Virus record (IMG/VR): IMGVR_UViG_3300032820_000108
Coordinates: 1 to 24,846 of that record
Length of the DNA stretch: 24,846 nucleotides
Direction: 5' to 3' (one strand)
DNA from: a virus
Shown here: positions 12,285-19,876 of the stretch, piece by piece
How the letters are laid out: each line of letters opens with the position of its first letter
How positions within the stretch are numbered: position 1 is the first letter of the stretch
The notes under the pieces: model-generated
The model's database searches: none
The model's input: the letters and a program-made list of their open reading frames with translations, nothing else
What the model was told of the DNA's origin: nothing
Translations under genes and position numbers: made by a program

Positions 12285-13736
12285 ATGGCACTTAACCCGT
12301 ATTTTCAACAAGGTTCTCGATCTGAACAAAATTTAGTACAAGATTTAATCAACGAACAGTTGAGGATGTATGGTGTTGAGGTGCATTATTTACCTCGTAA
12401 ATATATTTCAGAAACAACTGTAATAAGAGAAGTAGTTAGATCAAAATTTGATGATGCTTATCCCTTAGAAGCATATTTGGATACTTATGATGGTTATGGG
12501 GAAAATCCTGTAATATTATCAAAGTTTGGTATTGAGCAAAAGAATGAAGTAACATTAACTATTTCAAAAGATAGGTGGGAGACTTATATTGAACCTCTAA
12601 TGGAAAATGAGGCTAATGTAAAACTTACCACTAGACCTAAGGAAGGAGATCTAATTTATTTTCCGCTAGGTGATCGTTTATTTGAGATTAAGTTTGTAGA
12701 ACATGAAAAGCCTTTTTATCAACTTAAAAAGACTTATGTTTATACTCTTCGATGTGAACTCTTCGTTTACGAGGATGAGGTTATTGATACTGGGGTTGAG
12801 GAAATTGATGATTCTCTAATTGGAGATGATTATGATGGTGTAGCAGGAGATGGTCTTTCAACAATTATTGGACCCACTCAAACTCTTACTTTGGTGGGAA
12901 CAGGAGTTACAGCAACTGCTGTGACGGGTATTGTTACAGGTGGTATTAGATACATTGAACTTTCTAATAGAGGGGGAGGATATCTAGGTGGTCCGACTGT
13001 GGCTATTTCTTCTGCACCATCAGGTGGAATAACTGGTATCGCCACAGTACGCTTTATTGCAGGTATGGTAGTATGTAATAAGGCAGTTAATCCAGCCACA
13101 AGATCGATTCAGAATGTAGATTTACAAAATGCGGGGGCGGGTTATGCTATAACTAATCCTCCTGTAATTAGTATATTTGGTAATGGAGGAAGTGGTGCAG
13201 CAGGAACTGCGGTGGTAAGTAATGATGGTATAGGTATTGTAACCGTTACCGCAGGTGGTAGTGGATATACTACAAGTCCAACTATTTCCTTTACAAGTGA
13301 AATATTTAAGACTGGTGTTAGTACTGCTGGTGCTGCTGCTACTGCCGTCTTGGATTCTAGTGGCAGTATTACTGCTATCAATATAACTAATGCTGGTATG
13401 GGATATAGTACCGCACCCATATTAAATATCACTGGCGCAGGGGTAACCTATAGTGGTAACTTCGACTTTAATGAGGAAGTCGTTGGGTCTATCAGTAGCA
13501 CTACTGCTAGGGTAAGGACTTGGAATGCAGAAACCAATGTAATAGAATTGGCTTCGGTAAGTGGATCATGGACATTAGGAGAGAAATTAGTAGGTCAGCA
13601 ATCAGGTGCAGTACATGCAATAAGACAGATTGATTTGGATCCATTGGAAGATGGGTTTGCGGATAATTTGAAGATAGAAGAAGCAGCAGATGATATTTTA
13701 GACTTTACAGAACAGAATCCATTCGGGACACCATAA
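12285..13736 (+). CDS. gp14: Neck protein gp14, enlarged by inserted repeats
   Basis: Homologue of T4 gp14, the second neck protein. Residues 1-195 match T4 closely: MYGVEVHYLPRKYI (T4 RGVECYYVPREYV), AYLDTYDGYG, NEVTLTI, and EGDLIYFPLGDRLFEI (T4 EGDLIYFPMDNSLFEI). T4 gp14 has 256 residues; this one has 483. The surplus is a run of four GxGY units between about residues 200 and 385 (NRGGGYLG, NAGAGYAI, AGGSGYTT, NAGMGYST) followed by a unit of the type FNEEVVGSISSTTARV and LGEKLVGQQSGAV (about 390-445). The C-terminus (DPLEDGFADN to DFTEQNPFG) resumes the family-like tail. The insert probably projects from the neck surface; its function is unknown. AGGA at 12277-12280 precedes the start, inside the end of gp13. 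Confidence 0.93.
   Translation: MALNPYFQQGSRSEQNLVQDLINEQLRMYGVEVHYLPRKYISETTVIREVVRSKFDDAYPLEAYLDTYDGYGENPVILSKFGIEQKNEVTLTISKDRWETYIEPLMENEANVKLTTRPKEGDLIYFPLGDRLFEIKFVEHEKPFYQLKKTYVYTLRCELFVYEDEVIDTGVEEIDDSLIGDDYDGVAGDGLSTIIGPTQTLTLVGTGVTATAVTGIVTGGIRYIELSNRGGGYLGGPTVAISSAPSGGITGIATVRFIAGMVVCNKAVNPATRSIQNVDLQNAGAGYAITNPPVISIFGNGGSGAAGTAVVSNDGIGIVTVTAGGSGYTTSPTISFTSEIFKTGVSTAGAAATAVLDSSGSITAINITNAGMGYSTAPILNITGAGVTYSGNFDFNEEVVGSISSTTARVRTWNAETNVIELASVSGSWTLGEKLVGQQSGAVHAIRQIDLDPLEDGFADNLKIEEAADDILDFTEQNPFGTP
12885..13440 (+). repeat. Four GxGY protein modules inserted in gp14
   Basis: The translated segment holds four imperfect units of about 40-60 residues. Each has a strand, an N/G-x-G-x-GY turn, a P- or T-containing strand and a Gly/Ala-rich connector. 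The same unit recurs in three other genes of the window. The antisense strand stays open here only because of codon composition. Confidence 0.7.
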
Positions 13737-13739
13737 ATA
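13732..13739 (+). promoter_or_regulatory. Late promoter upstream of the His-repeat cassette, overlapping the gp14 stop
   Basis: CATAAATA includes the TAA stop of gp14 (13734-13736). It lies 37 bases before ATG 13777 and 9 bases before a sigma-70-like extended -10 box, so the cassette may have both an early and a late promoter. Confidence 0.55.
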
Positions 13740-13742
13740 TTT

Positions 13743-13753
13743 TGTGCTATAAT
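13743..13753 (+). promoter_or_regulatory. Extended -10 (sigma-70-like) promoter of the accessory cassette
   Basis: TGTGCTATAAT contains a perfect TATAAT with TG one base upstream, the extended -10 form that can work without a good -35 box; I see no TTGACA-like -35. The same 11 bases occur again at 24537-24547 before gp20. The predicted transcript start falls near 13760, in a short palindrome. Confidence 0.5.
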
Positions 13754-13755
13754 AT

Positions 13756-13766
13756 AGGATAATCCT
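13756..13766. promoter_or_regulatory. Palindrome at the predicted transcription start
   Basis: AGGATAATCCT is a perfect 5-bp dyad around a central A, placed just after the -10 box. It could be an operator or merely a chance palindrome. Confidence 0.3.
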
Positions 13767-13776
13767 CCCTTCTCCT

Positions 13777-13950
13777 ATGAATAAAGATCTGGCACGTATC
13801 GCTGACAGTCTTGAAAGAATCGCTAAGATTCTTGAAGATGGTCCATTGCATATAAATATTGATCATGGTCATATTGAACATATCGACCATCTTGATCATG
13901 TCGATAATATTGATCATGGTGATGTAGATGTCCACAATCACGCATTTTAA
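13777..13950 (+). CDS. His/Asp-repeat miniprotein
   Basis: A 57-residue protein. Residues 1-20 form an amphipathic helix (MNKDLARIADSLERIAKILE), a type seen in many small phage proteins. Residues 24-57 are a near-perfect period-three tract: hydrophobic residue, Asp or Glu, then His (units such as IDH, IEH, IDH, LDH, VDN, IDH), with 9 His and 8 acidic residues in the last 34. Such a tract could bind divalent metal or stack as strands. The codon pattern and the helix argue that it is really translated. No Shine-Dalgarno site precedes the ATG; instead there is a pyrimidine run. It ends 2 bases before the DUF2997 gene, so it heads a three-gene cassette between gp14 and gp15. No function is known to me. 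Confidence 0.7.
   Translation: MNKDLARIADSLERIAKILEDGPLHINIDHGHIEHIDHLDHVDNIDHGDVDVHNHAF
13851..13858 (+). promoter_or_regulatory. Possible internal late promoter box in the miniprotein gene
   Basis: An exact TATAAATA lies inside the coding sequence, 94 bases before the DUF2997 start. It may fire for the downstream pair or may be a by-product of the codons for His-Ile-Asn-Ile. Confidence 0.25.
13855..13920 (+). repeat. 15-base direct repeat within the His-repeat tract
   Basis: AATATTGATCATGGT occurs at 13855-13869 and again at 13906-13920, 51 bases (17 codons) apart, in the same frame. The copies flank further related GAxCAT units, so the tract probably grew by local duplication. Confidence 0.8.
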
Positions 13951-13952
13951 TC

Positions 13953-14171
13953 ATGACAACACAACAAACTCTTAAGTTTAATATTCGACAAGATGGAACT
14001 GTAACCGAAGAGGTTATAGGTGCGGTTGGTAATGAATGTGAACAACTTACTTCTCTAATAGAAGAAAATCTAGGTGTTGTATCTCAAAAAGAACATAAAC
14101 CAGAATATTTTCAACAATTGGCGGGTGAGGTAGAAGTAGAAGAATGGTCCCACGATTCGGAGTGCGCGTAA
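13953..14171 (+). CDS. DUF2997 family small protein
   Basis: A 72-residue protein that I recognise as DUF2997 from the N-terminal strand pair (LKFNIRQDGTVTEEVIGAVG), the single Cys (C29 in NECEQLTSLIEENLG) and the acidic tail. DUF2997 genes commonly sit beside DUF1257/Ycf35 genes in cyanobacteria and other bacteria, exactly as here; the biochemical function is not established. Its stop overlaps the next ATG (TAATG), so the two are translationally coupled. Its presence inside a virion gene block suggests a host-derived auxiliary gene expressed late. Confidence 0.8.
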   Translation: MTTQQTLKFNIRQDGTVTEEVIGAVGNECEQLTSLIEENLGVVSQKEHKPEYFQQLAGEVEVEEWSHDSECA

Positions 14172-14551
14172 TGTCACATTTCAGTACTATAAAAACAAAA
14201 ATCAAAGAAAAACCTATTTTACTTGAAGCACTTCAATTATTAGGACATGATATAAATGAGGATGTTAAACTCGAAAATCCTCTTGATCATGAGCATAAAC
14301 AGTGGCAAGTGGATGTTGCTGTTGGTGATGACATTGGATTTCGTTTGAATAAAGACGGGGTTTATGAACTGGTTACAGATCTTCAAACTTGGAGTCAACC
14401 AATACCACCAGAAAGATTCATTGAAAAAGTAACCCAACAGTATGCAAGAATGAGTATTCATAATACTGTAAAAGAACTTGGGTTTGAAGTTGCAGAAGAA
14501 TGGGAGATGGATGACAACTCCATAGAATTGACTGTAACTCGTTGGGTATAA
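14171..14551 (+). CDS. ycf35: Ycf35-like protein (DUF1257)
   Basis: A 126-residue homologue of Ycf35, a conserved cyanobacterial and red-plastid protein of unknown function. The start MSHFSTIKTKIK is the family signature. LLEALQLLG, the HKQWQVDVAVGDDIGFRLNKDG-type core and the ending ELTVTRWV also fit, and the length equals the family's. An upstream in-frame ATG at 14144 would add 9 residues lying in the DUF2997 gene; ATG 14171, coupled to the DUF2997 stop, is preferred because the family starts there. It was likely acquired from a cyanobacterial host together with DUF2997. A role in host physiology during infection is inference. Confidence 0.85.
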   Translation: MSHFSTIKTKIKEKPILLEALQLLGHDINEDVKLENPLDHEHKQWQVDVAVGDDIGFRLNKDGVYELVTDLQTWSQPIPPERFIEKVTQQYARMSIHNTVKELGFEVAEEWEMDDNSIELTVTRWV

Positions 14552-14554
14552 ATA
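14547..14554 (+). promoter_or_regulatory. Consensus late promoter upstream of gene 15
   Basis: An exact T4 consensus TATAAATA overlaps the Ycf35 stop codon (14549-14551), 21 bases before ATG 14576. Confidence 0.7.
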
Positions 14555-14575: not shown

Positions 14576-15586
14576 ATGTTTGAATATTTTTATAACGAAA
14601 TTTTGAGGAGAACCATCATTGCGTTTGGTACTCTTTTTAATGGTATTACTATTAAGCAAGAGGGTTCTGATATAAGAGTTCCTTTGGCATATGGTCCTAC
14701 TCAGAAGTTTTTAGCACGTTTAACTCAAACACCAGATTTAAATAAGGCAACGGCAATTACTTTGCCACGAATGTCTTTTGAATTTACTGGTTTAACTTAT
14801 GATCCCTCACGTAAAGTTACTACCACTCAGCAATTTGTAGTAAAAGATCCTACTGATGGGACAGAATCGAAAAAGGCATATATGCCTGTTCCATATAATA
14901 TGCAATTTGAACTTGCTGTTATGTGTAAATTAAATGATGATGCACTGCAAATTACAGAGCAGATATTACCTTATTTTCAACCAGCATATAGTGTTAGTGT
15001 AAATTTAGTTGGAAGTATTAATGAGAAGAGAGATATTCCTATTGTCTTAGAAAATATTACAATGCAGGATGATTATGAAGGAGATTTTGAGCAGAGAAGA
15101 GTTCTTCTTTATACTTTAAGATTTACGGCGAAAACTTACATGTTTGGTCCTGTTTCTTCTGCTACCGACGATATTGTTAAGAAGGTTCGTGTTAGTTACC
15201 TTACTGGTACAGATACTACGAATACTTCCAGAGATCTTACATACACTGTTACACCAAGAGCAGTTAAGAGTTACGATGGTCCTGTTGTAACTACTCTTAA
15301 TGAAGATCTTAATCTCACCGAAGTAGAGATTGCATTAACAGATGCAACTAATATTGCCGTTGATCAATACATCTATATTGATCAAGAAGAAATGCTTGTT
15401 ACAACTGTTAATAATAATTCAATAGTTGTGATGAGAGCACAGGATGGAACGGCTGCTGCTTCTCATGTTAAGGGAACTTCAGTAAGAGTTGTTAATCCTA
15501 CGGTAGCTGATAATGCTGTTGTTCAGGATGATAATGCTCTTATTGAAGAGGGTGATGACTTTGGATTTGATGGTATTATCTCATGA
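14576..15586 (+). CDS. gp15: Tail sheath stabiliser and completion protein gp15
   Basis: Homologue of T4 gp15, the hexameric cap that terminates the tail and docks to the neck. The start MFEYFYNEILRRTIIAFGTL parallels T4 MFGYFYNSSFRRYATLMGDL. QILPYFQPAYSVSV (T4 QILPYFQPHFNTTM) and the KRDIPIVLENI strand complete the match. The protein has 336 residues against 272 in T4. The extra C-terminal segment, about residues 235-312, carries a unit of the form DQYIYIDQEEMLVTTV, then NNSIVVMRAQDGT, then HVKGTSVRVV, which also occurs in the giant protein. The C-terminus is acidic. Its TGA stop overlaps the gp16 start in ATGA. Confidence 0.93.
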   Translation: MFEYFYNEILRRTIIAFGTLFNGITIKQEGSDIRVPLAYGPTQKFLARLTQTPDLNKATAITLPRMSFEFTGLTYDPSRKVTTTQQFVVKDPTDGTESKKAYMPVPYNMQFELAVMCKLNDDALQITEQILPYFQPAYSVSVNLVGSINEKRDIPIVLENITMQDDYEGDFEQRRVLLYTLRFTAKTYMFGPVSSATDDIVKKVRVSYLTGTDTTNTSRDLTYTVTPRAVKSYDGPVVTTLNEDLNLTEVEIALTDATNIAVDQYIYIDQEEMLVTTVNNNSIVVMRAQDGTAAASHVKGTSVRVVNPTVADNAVVQDDNALIEEGDDFGFDGIIS

Positions 15587-18733: not shown

Positions 18734-19876
18734 ATGAAGGATTGTAAGCAAGGTTATTATTTCTGCACGAAAGAAAAGAAGTGTATGCCAATTCCTAGTG
18801 GAATGAGAATTGGATATGGTGGATGGTTAGAGCCTAAGAAAAAGAAAAATGGTAATGGAAAAAATGGTAATGGGAACGGTAACGGACATTCTAACGGACA
18901 TGGGAATGGTGCGAATGGTAATGGAAATGGTTCTAATGGCTCTGGTAATGGGGGGAATGGTGGTAGCAATGGTGGCGGCGTTTCTGAAGCAGTAACTGAT
19001 GCTCAATTAAAAGCTCAGGAAAAGGCAGTATTTGAGTTAGAAAAGAAAGAAGCAAATGCAGATAGAGCAAAAGCAATGAAAAAACGTCAGAAGGAATTAG
19101 GTGAAGAGAAGAAAAAAGGTCTTTGGGATAATATTCATGCTAAAAGAAAGCGTGGTGAGAAACCAGCAAAACCTGGTGATAAAGATTATCCAAAGACTCT
19201 TAATGTAGAAGAAAGAATAAGACTTCCTCTTAAATTAGAAGTTCCTCAGACTAATACAGAGTTTAGATTAGGTCTTATGTTCAGAGAAAGTCTAGACTAT
19301 GACAGGGGGATGCTTTTTATTTTTGAGGAAGTGGGACAAAAATCTTTTCATATGAAAGATACTCGTATTCCACTTGATATTGCATTTATTAAGGAAGATG
19401 GAACTATTGAAAGTATTAAACCTTTGAATCCCTTTACTCTTTTACCAGTATCTTCTGATGGTGATGTTGTATCAGCAGTGGAAGTAAATAGAGGATGGTT
19501 TGCTGAAAATAACGTCCAAGAAGGAGATGCATTACAAATTGGAAATGCAACAGGCGGTCTTGCTTTTGAAGTTATAGATCTTATTAAACCAGAACCTCTT
19601 GTACCTACTCAACAAACTGTTGAATGGGAAGATCCAGCAGAACTCACAGAAATACGTAGAGTTCCCAACTATAATAAACCAGGAAATATATTGCAAATAT
19701 ATTTGGCATGGAGAGGAAGAACAATGAGTATTCAAATGTTCTTCCCATCTGCGAAGAAACCATCTCGTAAAGAGGTATTAGATCAATTGCAAAAGGTATA
19801 TCCTACTGCTAAACTTCATAGTTTTGAAGTAACAGATTATGATCCTCAAGCACCTCTTCTTCAAACAGGAAATTAA
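18734..19876 (+). CDS. DUF192-containing virion/assembly protein with Gly/Asn-rich linker
   Basis: A 380-residue multidomain protein. Residues 1-35 hold three Cys (C4, C11, C17) in a segment with YYFCTKEKKCMPIPSGM, a leader seen in several marine phage proteins. Residues about 37-82 are nearly pure Gly/Asn with some Ser and His. VSEAV (83-87) resembles a prohead protease site. Next comes a charged helix and a basic segment (GLWDNIHAKRKRGEKPAKPG). Residues about 170-285 are a DUF192 domain (RLGLMFRES, GMLFIFE, FHMKDTRIPLDIAFI, VEVNRGWF, the family's usual WMKNT replaced by HMKDT). The C-terminal 75 residues (LQIYLAWRGRTMSIQMFFPS, then RKEVLDQLQKVYPTAK) form a separate alpha/beta unit. DUF192 function is unknown. 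It is encoded just before gp17, and I infer a head-assembly or virion role. Confidence 0.8.
   Translation: MKDCKQGYYFCTKEKKCMPIPSGMRIGYGGWLEPKKKKNGNGKNGNGNGNGHSNGHGNGANGNGNGSNGSGNGGNGGSNGGGVSEAVTDAQLKAQEKAVFELEKKEANADRAKAMKKRQKELGEEKKKGLWDNIHAKRKRGEKPAKPGDKDYPKTLNVEERIRLPLKLEVPQTNTEFRLGLMFRESLDYDRGMLFIFEEVGQKSFHMKDTRIPLDIAFIKEDGTIESIKPLNPFTLLPVSSDGDVVSAVEVNRGWFAENNVQEGDALQIGNATGGLAFEVIDLIKPEPLVPTQQTVEWEDPAELTEIRRVPNYNKPGNILQIYLAWRGRTMSIQMFFPSAKKPSRKEVLDQLQKVYPTAKLHSFEVTDYDPQAPLLQTGN
18848..18981 (+). repeat. Gly/Asn-coding low-complexity repeat
   Basis: The DNA consists of degenerate GGTAATGG / GGGAATGG units coding alternating Gly and Asn with occasional His, Ser and Ala. It links the Cys-containing leader to the VSEAV site of the DUF192 protein and is likely variable in length between relatives. 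Confidence 0.85.

Follow-up and report, generated by a model that had tools for sequence, protein, structure and literature searches.

A recurrent cassette of a His-rich miniprotein, DUF2997 and a phage-specific Ycf35 in T4-like cyanophages

The window analysed here is the virus record IMGVR_UViG_3300032820_000108, taken over its full length of 24,846 bases, which carries neck and tail genes of a T4-like cyanophage. Three small genes, encoding a His/Asp-rich miniprotein, a DUF2997 protein and a Ycf35 (DUF1257) protein (Table 1), lie between gp14 (PF11649), which ends at position 13736, and gp15 (PF16724), which starts at 14576. Open reading frame (ORF) coordinates and Pfam matches agree on this point with the original prediction, made from the letters alone, of three genes spaced by a 2-base gap and then a 1-base overlap. 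Both known families are recognized well above their curated Pfam cut-offs, with 75.3 bits for PF06868 (DUF1257) on Ycf35 (cut-off 22.2) and 65.2 bits for PF11211 on the DUF2997 protein (cut-off 24.1). The spacing of gp14 and gp15 is 839 bases in the window versus 40 in S-SM2 and 38 in P-TIM68, two genomes without the cassette; because of these short gaps, the cassette is either an insertion relative to S-SM2 and P-TIM68 or was lost in those two. The same unit recurs at at least five identified sites, on 55 contigs and in two gene orders, so that the linkage of the miniprotein to the DUF2997-Ycf35 pair is not due to chance; the miniprotein is nonetheless optional, and this is the chief weakness of the interpretation proposed here, namely that of a roaming accessory cassette related to a host stress module.

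Table 1. Positions of the cassette genes and associated sequence features in the window.
Feature	Position	Strand	Remarks
Miniprotein gene	13777..13950	+	57 amino acids; helix at residues 3-20 (RIAxxLERIAxxLE), then His/Asp-rich tail
DUF2997 gene	13953..14171	+	72 amino acids; PF11211, E 4.9e-18; phrog_23133
Ycf35/DUF1257 gene	14171..14551	+	126 amino acids counted from the MSHF start; PF06868, E 5e-21; phrog_20456; AlphaFold2 (AF2) model pLDDT 88
18-base tandem repeat	13870..13918	+	2.7 copies, inside the His/Asp repeat of the miniprotein
H40-E41-H42 codons, phage-specific His loop of Ycf35	14288..14296	+	His pair in 94/94 distinct phage sequences tested
Extended -10 box of the cassette, TGCTATAAT	13745..13753	+	Same kind of box in 10/10 distinct gp14/gp15 cassette upstreams
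Late-box-like sequence, CATAAATA	13732..13739	+	Overlaps the gp14 stop (13734-13736); weak
Late promoter box of gene 15, TATAAATA	14547..14554	+	Overlaps the ycf35 stop

Linkage was assessed with two scans of IMG/VR, which kept the best 80 loci each out of 356 relatives of Ycf35 and 88 relatives of the miniprotein; as these are the best relatives of the window's own proteins, the phage sample leans toward the window's kin. DUF2997 adjoins Ycf35 in 79 of the 80 viral Ycf35 loci, the remaining one being cut by the end of its contig. That the two genes form a known neighbour pair in cyanobacteria, as the original prediction states, is borne out by the conserved gene order DUF2997-ycf35-fed7 of cyanobacterial cluster g (PMC4284462), by the presence of DUF2997 in 78 of 80 picocyanobacterial Ycf35 loci, and by 30 of 30 wider cyanobacterial loci, which hold DUF2997 together with an ORF displaying a Cys pattern. 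Among the 73 viral Ycf35 loci with room for it, the miniprotein is no more than 900 bases away in 26, or in 27 once locus L042 is added, in whose record the miniprotein lies just past the stored stretch and is hence adjacent; "room" means here 450 bases upstream, which is too short for a four-gene version of the cassette, and three loci (L012, L034 and L058) may be miscalled. In the 80 miniprotein loci, the pair is adjacent in 32, lies farther off within the locus in 3, and no Ycf35 is seen in 45; at least four of these 45 (L102, L132, L145 and L155) break off shortly past the miniprotein, with L145 still showing DUF2997.

Cassettes with the miniprotein amount to 58 loci, corresponding to the 55 distinct contigs mentioned above (L082, L084 and L136 repeat L002, L075 and L008), some of which are near-identical. 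The miniprotein is upstream of the pair in 54 loci and downstream in 4. The gap between an upstream miniprotein and DUF2997 is at most 45 bases in 40 cases and 200-340 bases in the other 14, the longer gaps being occupied by a 98-amino-acid protein with no Pfam or PHROG match, which makes up the four-gene version (e.g., L158:2812-3108). This protein occurs in 21 loci. In 15 of them, and in the query locus too, it separates the miniprotein from DUF2997; in L042, L054 and L063 it precedes DUF2997 with no upstream miniprotein in view, and in 2 it has another arrangement. Of the three-part system initially proposed, the recurrent linkage of three genes over several sites is retained, whereas a fixed composition is not, given that the miniprotein is optional and that four-gene versions exist.

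Named phages and single-cell viral assemblies were searched as well, for all three genes in P-SSM2, P-SSM7 and AG-341-P01 and for Ycf35 and the miniprotein in the others; of note, single-cell assemblies may contain more than one virus. Ycf35 is present in 15 named records from 12 sources (P-SSM2, P-SSM5, P-SSM7 and nine single-cell assemblies), and the miniprotein in 14 named records from 11 sources (P-SSM2, P-SSM5, P-TIM40 and eight single-cell assemblies). Ten of the 12 sources with Ycf35 have both: at a distance of about 1 kb or less in six, about 45 kb apart in P-SSM2 and P-SSM5, and on different contigs in AG-345-E02 and AG-345-P14, while AG-345-D19 has Ycf35 only. As for the absence of the miniprotein from genomes that carry the pair, by which the original prediction had proposed to be judged, most fragments lack a nearby copy and most named sources have one. 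These data also bear on a simple alternative, in which the miniprotein and the pair are both drawn from one stock of small mobile phage genes, insert at the same hot spots and share no function. Such hitch-hiking would explain why many loci have the miniprotein or the pair without the other nearby, the large distance between them in P-SSM2, and the presence of the pair alone at the gp14/gp15 site in L059, L068, L070, L077, L079 and L081. It does not easily account for adjacency at no fewer than five sites, with the miniprotein on one side of the pair or the other, for the close spacing of 40 of the 54 upstream copies, or for co-presence in most of the named sources that have Ycf35, including four in which the genes are not adjacent, and appears rather improbable.

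The set with the miniprotein was located between gp14 and gp15, hsp20 and gp43, psbA and talC, gp16 and gp17 (in both gene orders), and h250 and a GDP-mannose dehydratase gene; a sixth site lies before a gp25-type baseplate gene in L158. The same genes are thus found at variable places between core genes, with sites free of the cassette in S-SM2 and P-TIM68, as expected for a mobile cassette. P-SSM2 lacks the gp14/gp15 version. The pair lacking the miniprotein is most often found next to talC (19 loci). In P-SSM7 (L164:6001-8334), it belongs to a photosynthesis stretch that includes hli genes, and both psbA and an annotated ferredoxin are no more than 1.7 kb away. In another locus (L023:5092-8410), the DUF2997 gene overlaps at its start with a gene for a 2OG-Fe(II) oxygenase, and talC is followed by a glutaredoxin gene; a 151-amino-acid ORF between the oxygenase and the talC-glutaredoxin stretch resembles, by eye, a GIY-YIG endonuclease. 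No endonuclease gene that might act as a mobiliser was found among the cassette genes of the window and the two flanking genes. In S-SRM01 (L248:3275-3802), an annotated homing endonuclease fills the same gap between gp14 and gp15, which may accordingly be an insertion hot spot.

Mobile cassettes of cyanophages as such are already known. Those described in PMC3037559 include zwf/gnd/petE/PTOX and the hypothetical T4-GCs 218, 219, 234, 235 and 237, which are likewise small accessory units at variable genome places but hold other genes, the P-SSM2 relatives of the present set being T4-GC 174, 175 and 251. No description of the miniprotein-DUF2997-Ycf35 combination was found in the accessible part of the open literature, subscription journals being mostly outside this coverage. 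PHROG 35332, which matches the miniprotein, comes with no role or partner in that library.

The phage Ycf35 proteins tested share one consistent change with respect to host ones. When 20 phage and 30 host sequences were aligned, every phage protein had H40 and H42 and no host protein did, the host loop reading [RK]G[YF]xG. When counted more widely, the H-x(1-4)-H motif was present in this loop in every distinct phage Ycf35 (Table 1; this count includes only P-SSM2, P-SSM7 and AG-341-P01 out of the 15 named Ycf35 records) versus 0 of 80 picocyanobacterial and 0 of 30 wider cyanobacterial sequences, the latter being the best-scoring matches, from which lower-scoring DUF1257 paralogues of the same genomes are left out. 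The window's Ycf35 accordingly carries the His pair instead of the host-type loop between strands 2 and 3; this is a difference of sub-type and does not exclude it from the Pfam family. A Ycf35 tree of 107 rows, 8 of them hosts, separates hosts from phages with a support of 98, within a reconstruction that has few columns and long branches and in which 44 of 99 inner branches are open. The best tree implies 22 changes of site label (rows with unknown sites being left out and hosts counted as a label) and 11 changes of miniprotein status. Because the window's Ycf35 clusters separately from its counterparts in L075, L083 and L085, which occupy the same site, although their gp15 is 97% identical where measured, the tree suggests gene-level exchange. 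Separately, the window's Ycf35 (14171-14551) looks mosaic when compared with that of L083, the last 34 residues or so being identical and the remainder different.

Structural and family searches gave few matches for the pair. With the AF2 model of Ycf35, the best Foldseek hit against solved structures had an E value of 0.078, and a second structural look (Z 6.7, root-mean-square deviation 2.9, 76 aligned residues) stayed within the noise of the tool; a search of viral models gave one match, A0A7S5REL3 (E 1.5e-8, 24% identity). Sequence searches of the PDB with Ycf35 and DUF2997 returned nothing at E values up to 10, NCBIfam gave no match for the pair and matched the miniprotein only far below a cut-off, and no anti-phage defence family was detected at E values up to 1.

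The miniprotein itself had 108 matches, which reduce to 66 distinct translations, including a few partial ones, and five comparisons among four gp14/gp15 sequences gave dN/dS ratios of 0.09-0.40. On both grounds, it is a real, selected gene and more than a chance ORF. Members of the family share a RIAxxLERIAxxLE helix, followed by IDHxHIE-type repeats, a GD[VI] motif and a His close to the C-terminus. The tail holds 9 His and 7 Asp in 35 residues, a composition which is suggestive of metal binding, but only suggestive. Residues 1-56 match phrog_35332 (E 4e-6), a family of 50 positions and unknown function, and AF2 predicts a confident helix at residues 3-20. A strict three-residue spacing in the tail was considered and not found across the family, in which distances modulo 3 number 26, 25 and 13. 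A fold search of viral models with the miniprotein model, which is poor outside the helix, gave a single match with an E value of 7.6. Sequence matches in the PDB, 57 in total, were led by designed Cake proteins (best E 1.6e-5) and then mostly DARPins; because no stretch passed alone in the top rows, they were set aside as compositional chance. In hosts, no match to the miniprotein was found in 80 picocyanobacterial loci (up to 10 kb) or 30 wider cyanobacterial loci (about 3 kb), nor in five whole picocyanobacterial genomes, the latter being a weak negative from a search with no positive control.

Expression signals point to a distinction between the cassette and its surroundings. The extended -10 box seen upstream of all distinct gp14/gp15 cassettes (Table 1) is found in 0 of 57 upstreams of gp13-gp18. 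Across sites, 24 of 84 distinct cassette upstreams have TGNTATAAT in the 80 bases before the cassette versus 11 of 205 control upstreams, the controls being counted from the starts of tblastn matches, which may differ from true gene starts. The box itself is not rare, with 7 occurrences in the window versus 2.85 expected in shuffles, and at several sites other than gp14/gp15, where it is missing, the cassette follows closely behind the preceding gene. Taken together, the sequence suggests that the gp14/gp15 cassette could be expressed outside the late programme, from a sigma-70-type extended -10 box. A late box had also been attributed to the cassette in the original prediction, and this part is weak: in several relatives, CATAAATA is replaced by CATAGATA, CATAGGTA or CGTAATAT, and with its overlap with the gp14 stop it may be incidental. 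The claim that the cassette ends at the late promoter of gene 15 stands, as TATAAATA, at 14547, precedes gp15 and overlaps the end of ycf35, and does so in 7 of 7 relatives' upstreams printed. A general promoter scan of the window was uninformative alone (42 found versus 40.7 expected), and TAAATA occurs less often in the window (31) than in shuffles (48.4).

The promoter data also bear on the idea that the miniprotein is a minor part of the virion, such as a metal-lined oligomeric spike. Some phage fibre tips bind metal through HxH motifs, and such a role would suit a helix followed by His/Asp repeats in a protein whose gene neighbours neck, packaging or baseplate genes at three sites. It is very improbable, however, as the extended -10 box is not common to the surrounding late genes, the miniprotein gene is also found beside hsp20, psbA and gp43, no match to it was detected in S-SM2, P-TIM68 and S-SRM01, which share the same neck genes, and its PHROG is classified as of unknown function and not as structural.

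As to what the pair does, most indications come from the hosts. Of 146 genomes sampled from the cyanobacterial phylum, 74 gave a Ycf35 match, and the next ORF is a Fed7-type 4Fe-4S ferredoxin in the three picocyanobacterial loci printed (confirmed by Pfam for one). For what follows, ssl1263 is taken to be the DUF2997 gene. Expression of ssl1263, fed7 and ycf35 depends on SigD (PMC8875361). Expression of fed7 is induced by iron starvation, and the gene is required to tolerate iron limitation as well as oxidative and metal stress (PMC4284462). Ycf35 protein increases under copper/iron deduction (PMC8141849), and Ycf35 and DUF2997 are among the genes separating Prochlorococcus light ecotypes (PMC13131479). 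In addition, plastid ycf35 is retained in most marine red algae, in a source whose remarks on iron are loose (PMC5940233). The phage cassette resembles cluster g in that DUF2997 is directly beside Ycf35, both above the Pfam cut-offs. It differs by the miniprotein, sometimes the 98-amino-acid protein, the phage-only His loop and the lack of a Fer4_13 match: 2 of 2 host genomes gave one, but none of 12 virus records did, a set made up of P-SSM2, P-SSM7, one 202-kb contig and nine fragments (23-90 kb). In the window, the neighbours are gp14 and gp15, and neither fed7 (Fer4_13) nor an AAA ATPase gene adjoins the pair.

A different role is hinted at by plasmids, where both small families likewise occur together on mobile DNA. 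In three of six plasmid regions (Nostoc C052, Pseudanabaena and Geminocystis), a PF00004 AAA ATPase is encoded within about 1.2 kb downstream of DUF2997, with GrpE and Hsp70 additionally upstream in Pseudanabaena; in contrast to the phage sequences, the printed plasmid loops show no His pair by eye. The pair could then be an adaptor that loads substrates on a host AAA+ or Hsp70/DnaJ machine, with the miniprotein as an oligomerising scaffold, and the binding of Fed7 to a DnaJ-like protein (PMC4284462) would be in line with this. Yet, no AAA ATPase gene is directly beside the pair in P-SSM2, P-SSM7 or the window, and the His loop and His tail would be left unexplained, which makes this an unlikely explanation, slightly more so than hitch-hiking. 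A DUF1257 gene was also noticed among phage tail genes on a Treponema succinifaciens plasmid (L251:4001-4408), far from cyanobacteria.

The explanation that we favour, tentatively and at somewhat short of even chances, is that of a roaming accessory (auxiliary-metabolic) cassette of T4-like cyanophages, which would represent a phage-remodelled branch of the host stress module, with His-rich parts in the place of Fed7 and a hand-over of metal. Its components differ in strength. Linkage, mobility and phage-specific remodelling are highly probable, and a role of the DUF2997-Ycf35 pair in stress or iron-redox physiology is about an even bet. A hand-over of metal by the miniprotein specifically, a step taken from its His-rich sequence, is doubtful. 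In this scheme, the cassette would be expressed early or in the middle of infection from the extended -10 box and would supply a phage version of the host DUF2997-Ycf35 module; the miniprotein would oligomerise via its N-terminal helix into a small helical assembly, its flexible His/Asp tails would bind a divalent metal, most likely iron, and it would interact physically with the pair, handing metal to it, or buffering metal for it, via the His loop. This could sustain processes that depend on iron or redox chemistry, for instance maintenance of the photosystems or the activity of 2OG-Fe(II) oxygenases. A more specific version, in which phages kept DUF2997-Ycf35, gained a His-x-His metal site, dropped Fed7 and added a metal-loading miniprotein, resulting in a Fed7-independent iron/oxidative-stress pathway, is less likely still. 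The metal- or redox-linked function first suggested for the cassette is thus one toward which the phage His loop, the host Fed7 neighbour and the host papers lean, while metal transfer itself is something that we infer.

Several observations weigh against the metal hand-over cassette just outlined. Regarding linkage, 46 of the 73 Ycf35 loci with room, most of them short fragments, show no adjacent miniprotein, and only two of the 46 records hold one elsewhere, far off (that of L067 and the 202-kb record of L023); conversely, 44 of the 45 records of miniprotein loci lacking Ycf35 gave no PF06868 match, one having Ycf35 elsewhere. P-SSM7 has the pair without the miniprotein, and P-TIM40 the miniprotein without a Ycf35 match. 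Regarding mobility and expression, the supported branches of the Ycf35 tree by themselves require only between 1 and 4 changes of label in each site group, far below the 22 of the best tree, and most sites other than gp14/gp15 are devoid of the extended -10 box. Regarding function, the miniprotein tail is unstructured in the AF2 model (pLDDT 51-58), the Ycf35 fold has no clear match among solved structures, and on plasmids, DUF1257/DUF2997 genes have AAA ATPases, not a ferredoxin, in their vicinity. Finally, a phage ferredoxin is not simply absent, since one is annotated near the pair in P-SSM7, although it gives no Fer4_13 match.

Ycf35 is encoded in algal plastids and in many cyanobacteria, and its function is not settled in the literature examined. 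With one consistent phage change in Ycf35 and a frequent link to the miniprotein, the comparison of phage and host proteins provides a handle on this old question. If metal handling were true, the supply of iron or of a redox metal would join the list of functions contributed by marine phages to photosynthetic hosts, possibly helping an infected ocean cyanobacterium to cope with scarce iron or oxidative stress. Elsewhere in the window, short tandem repeats at 18845-18961 lie in a Gly/Asn-rich stretch of a 380-amino-acid ORF (18734-19876).

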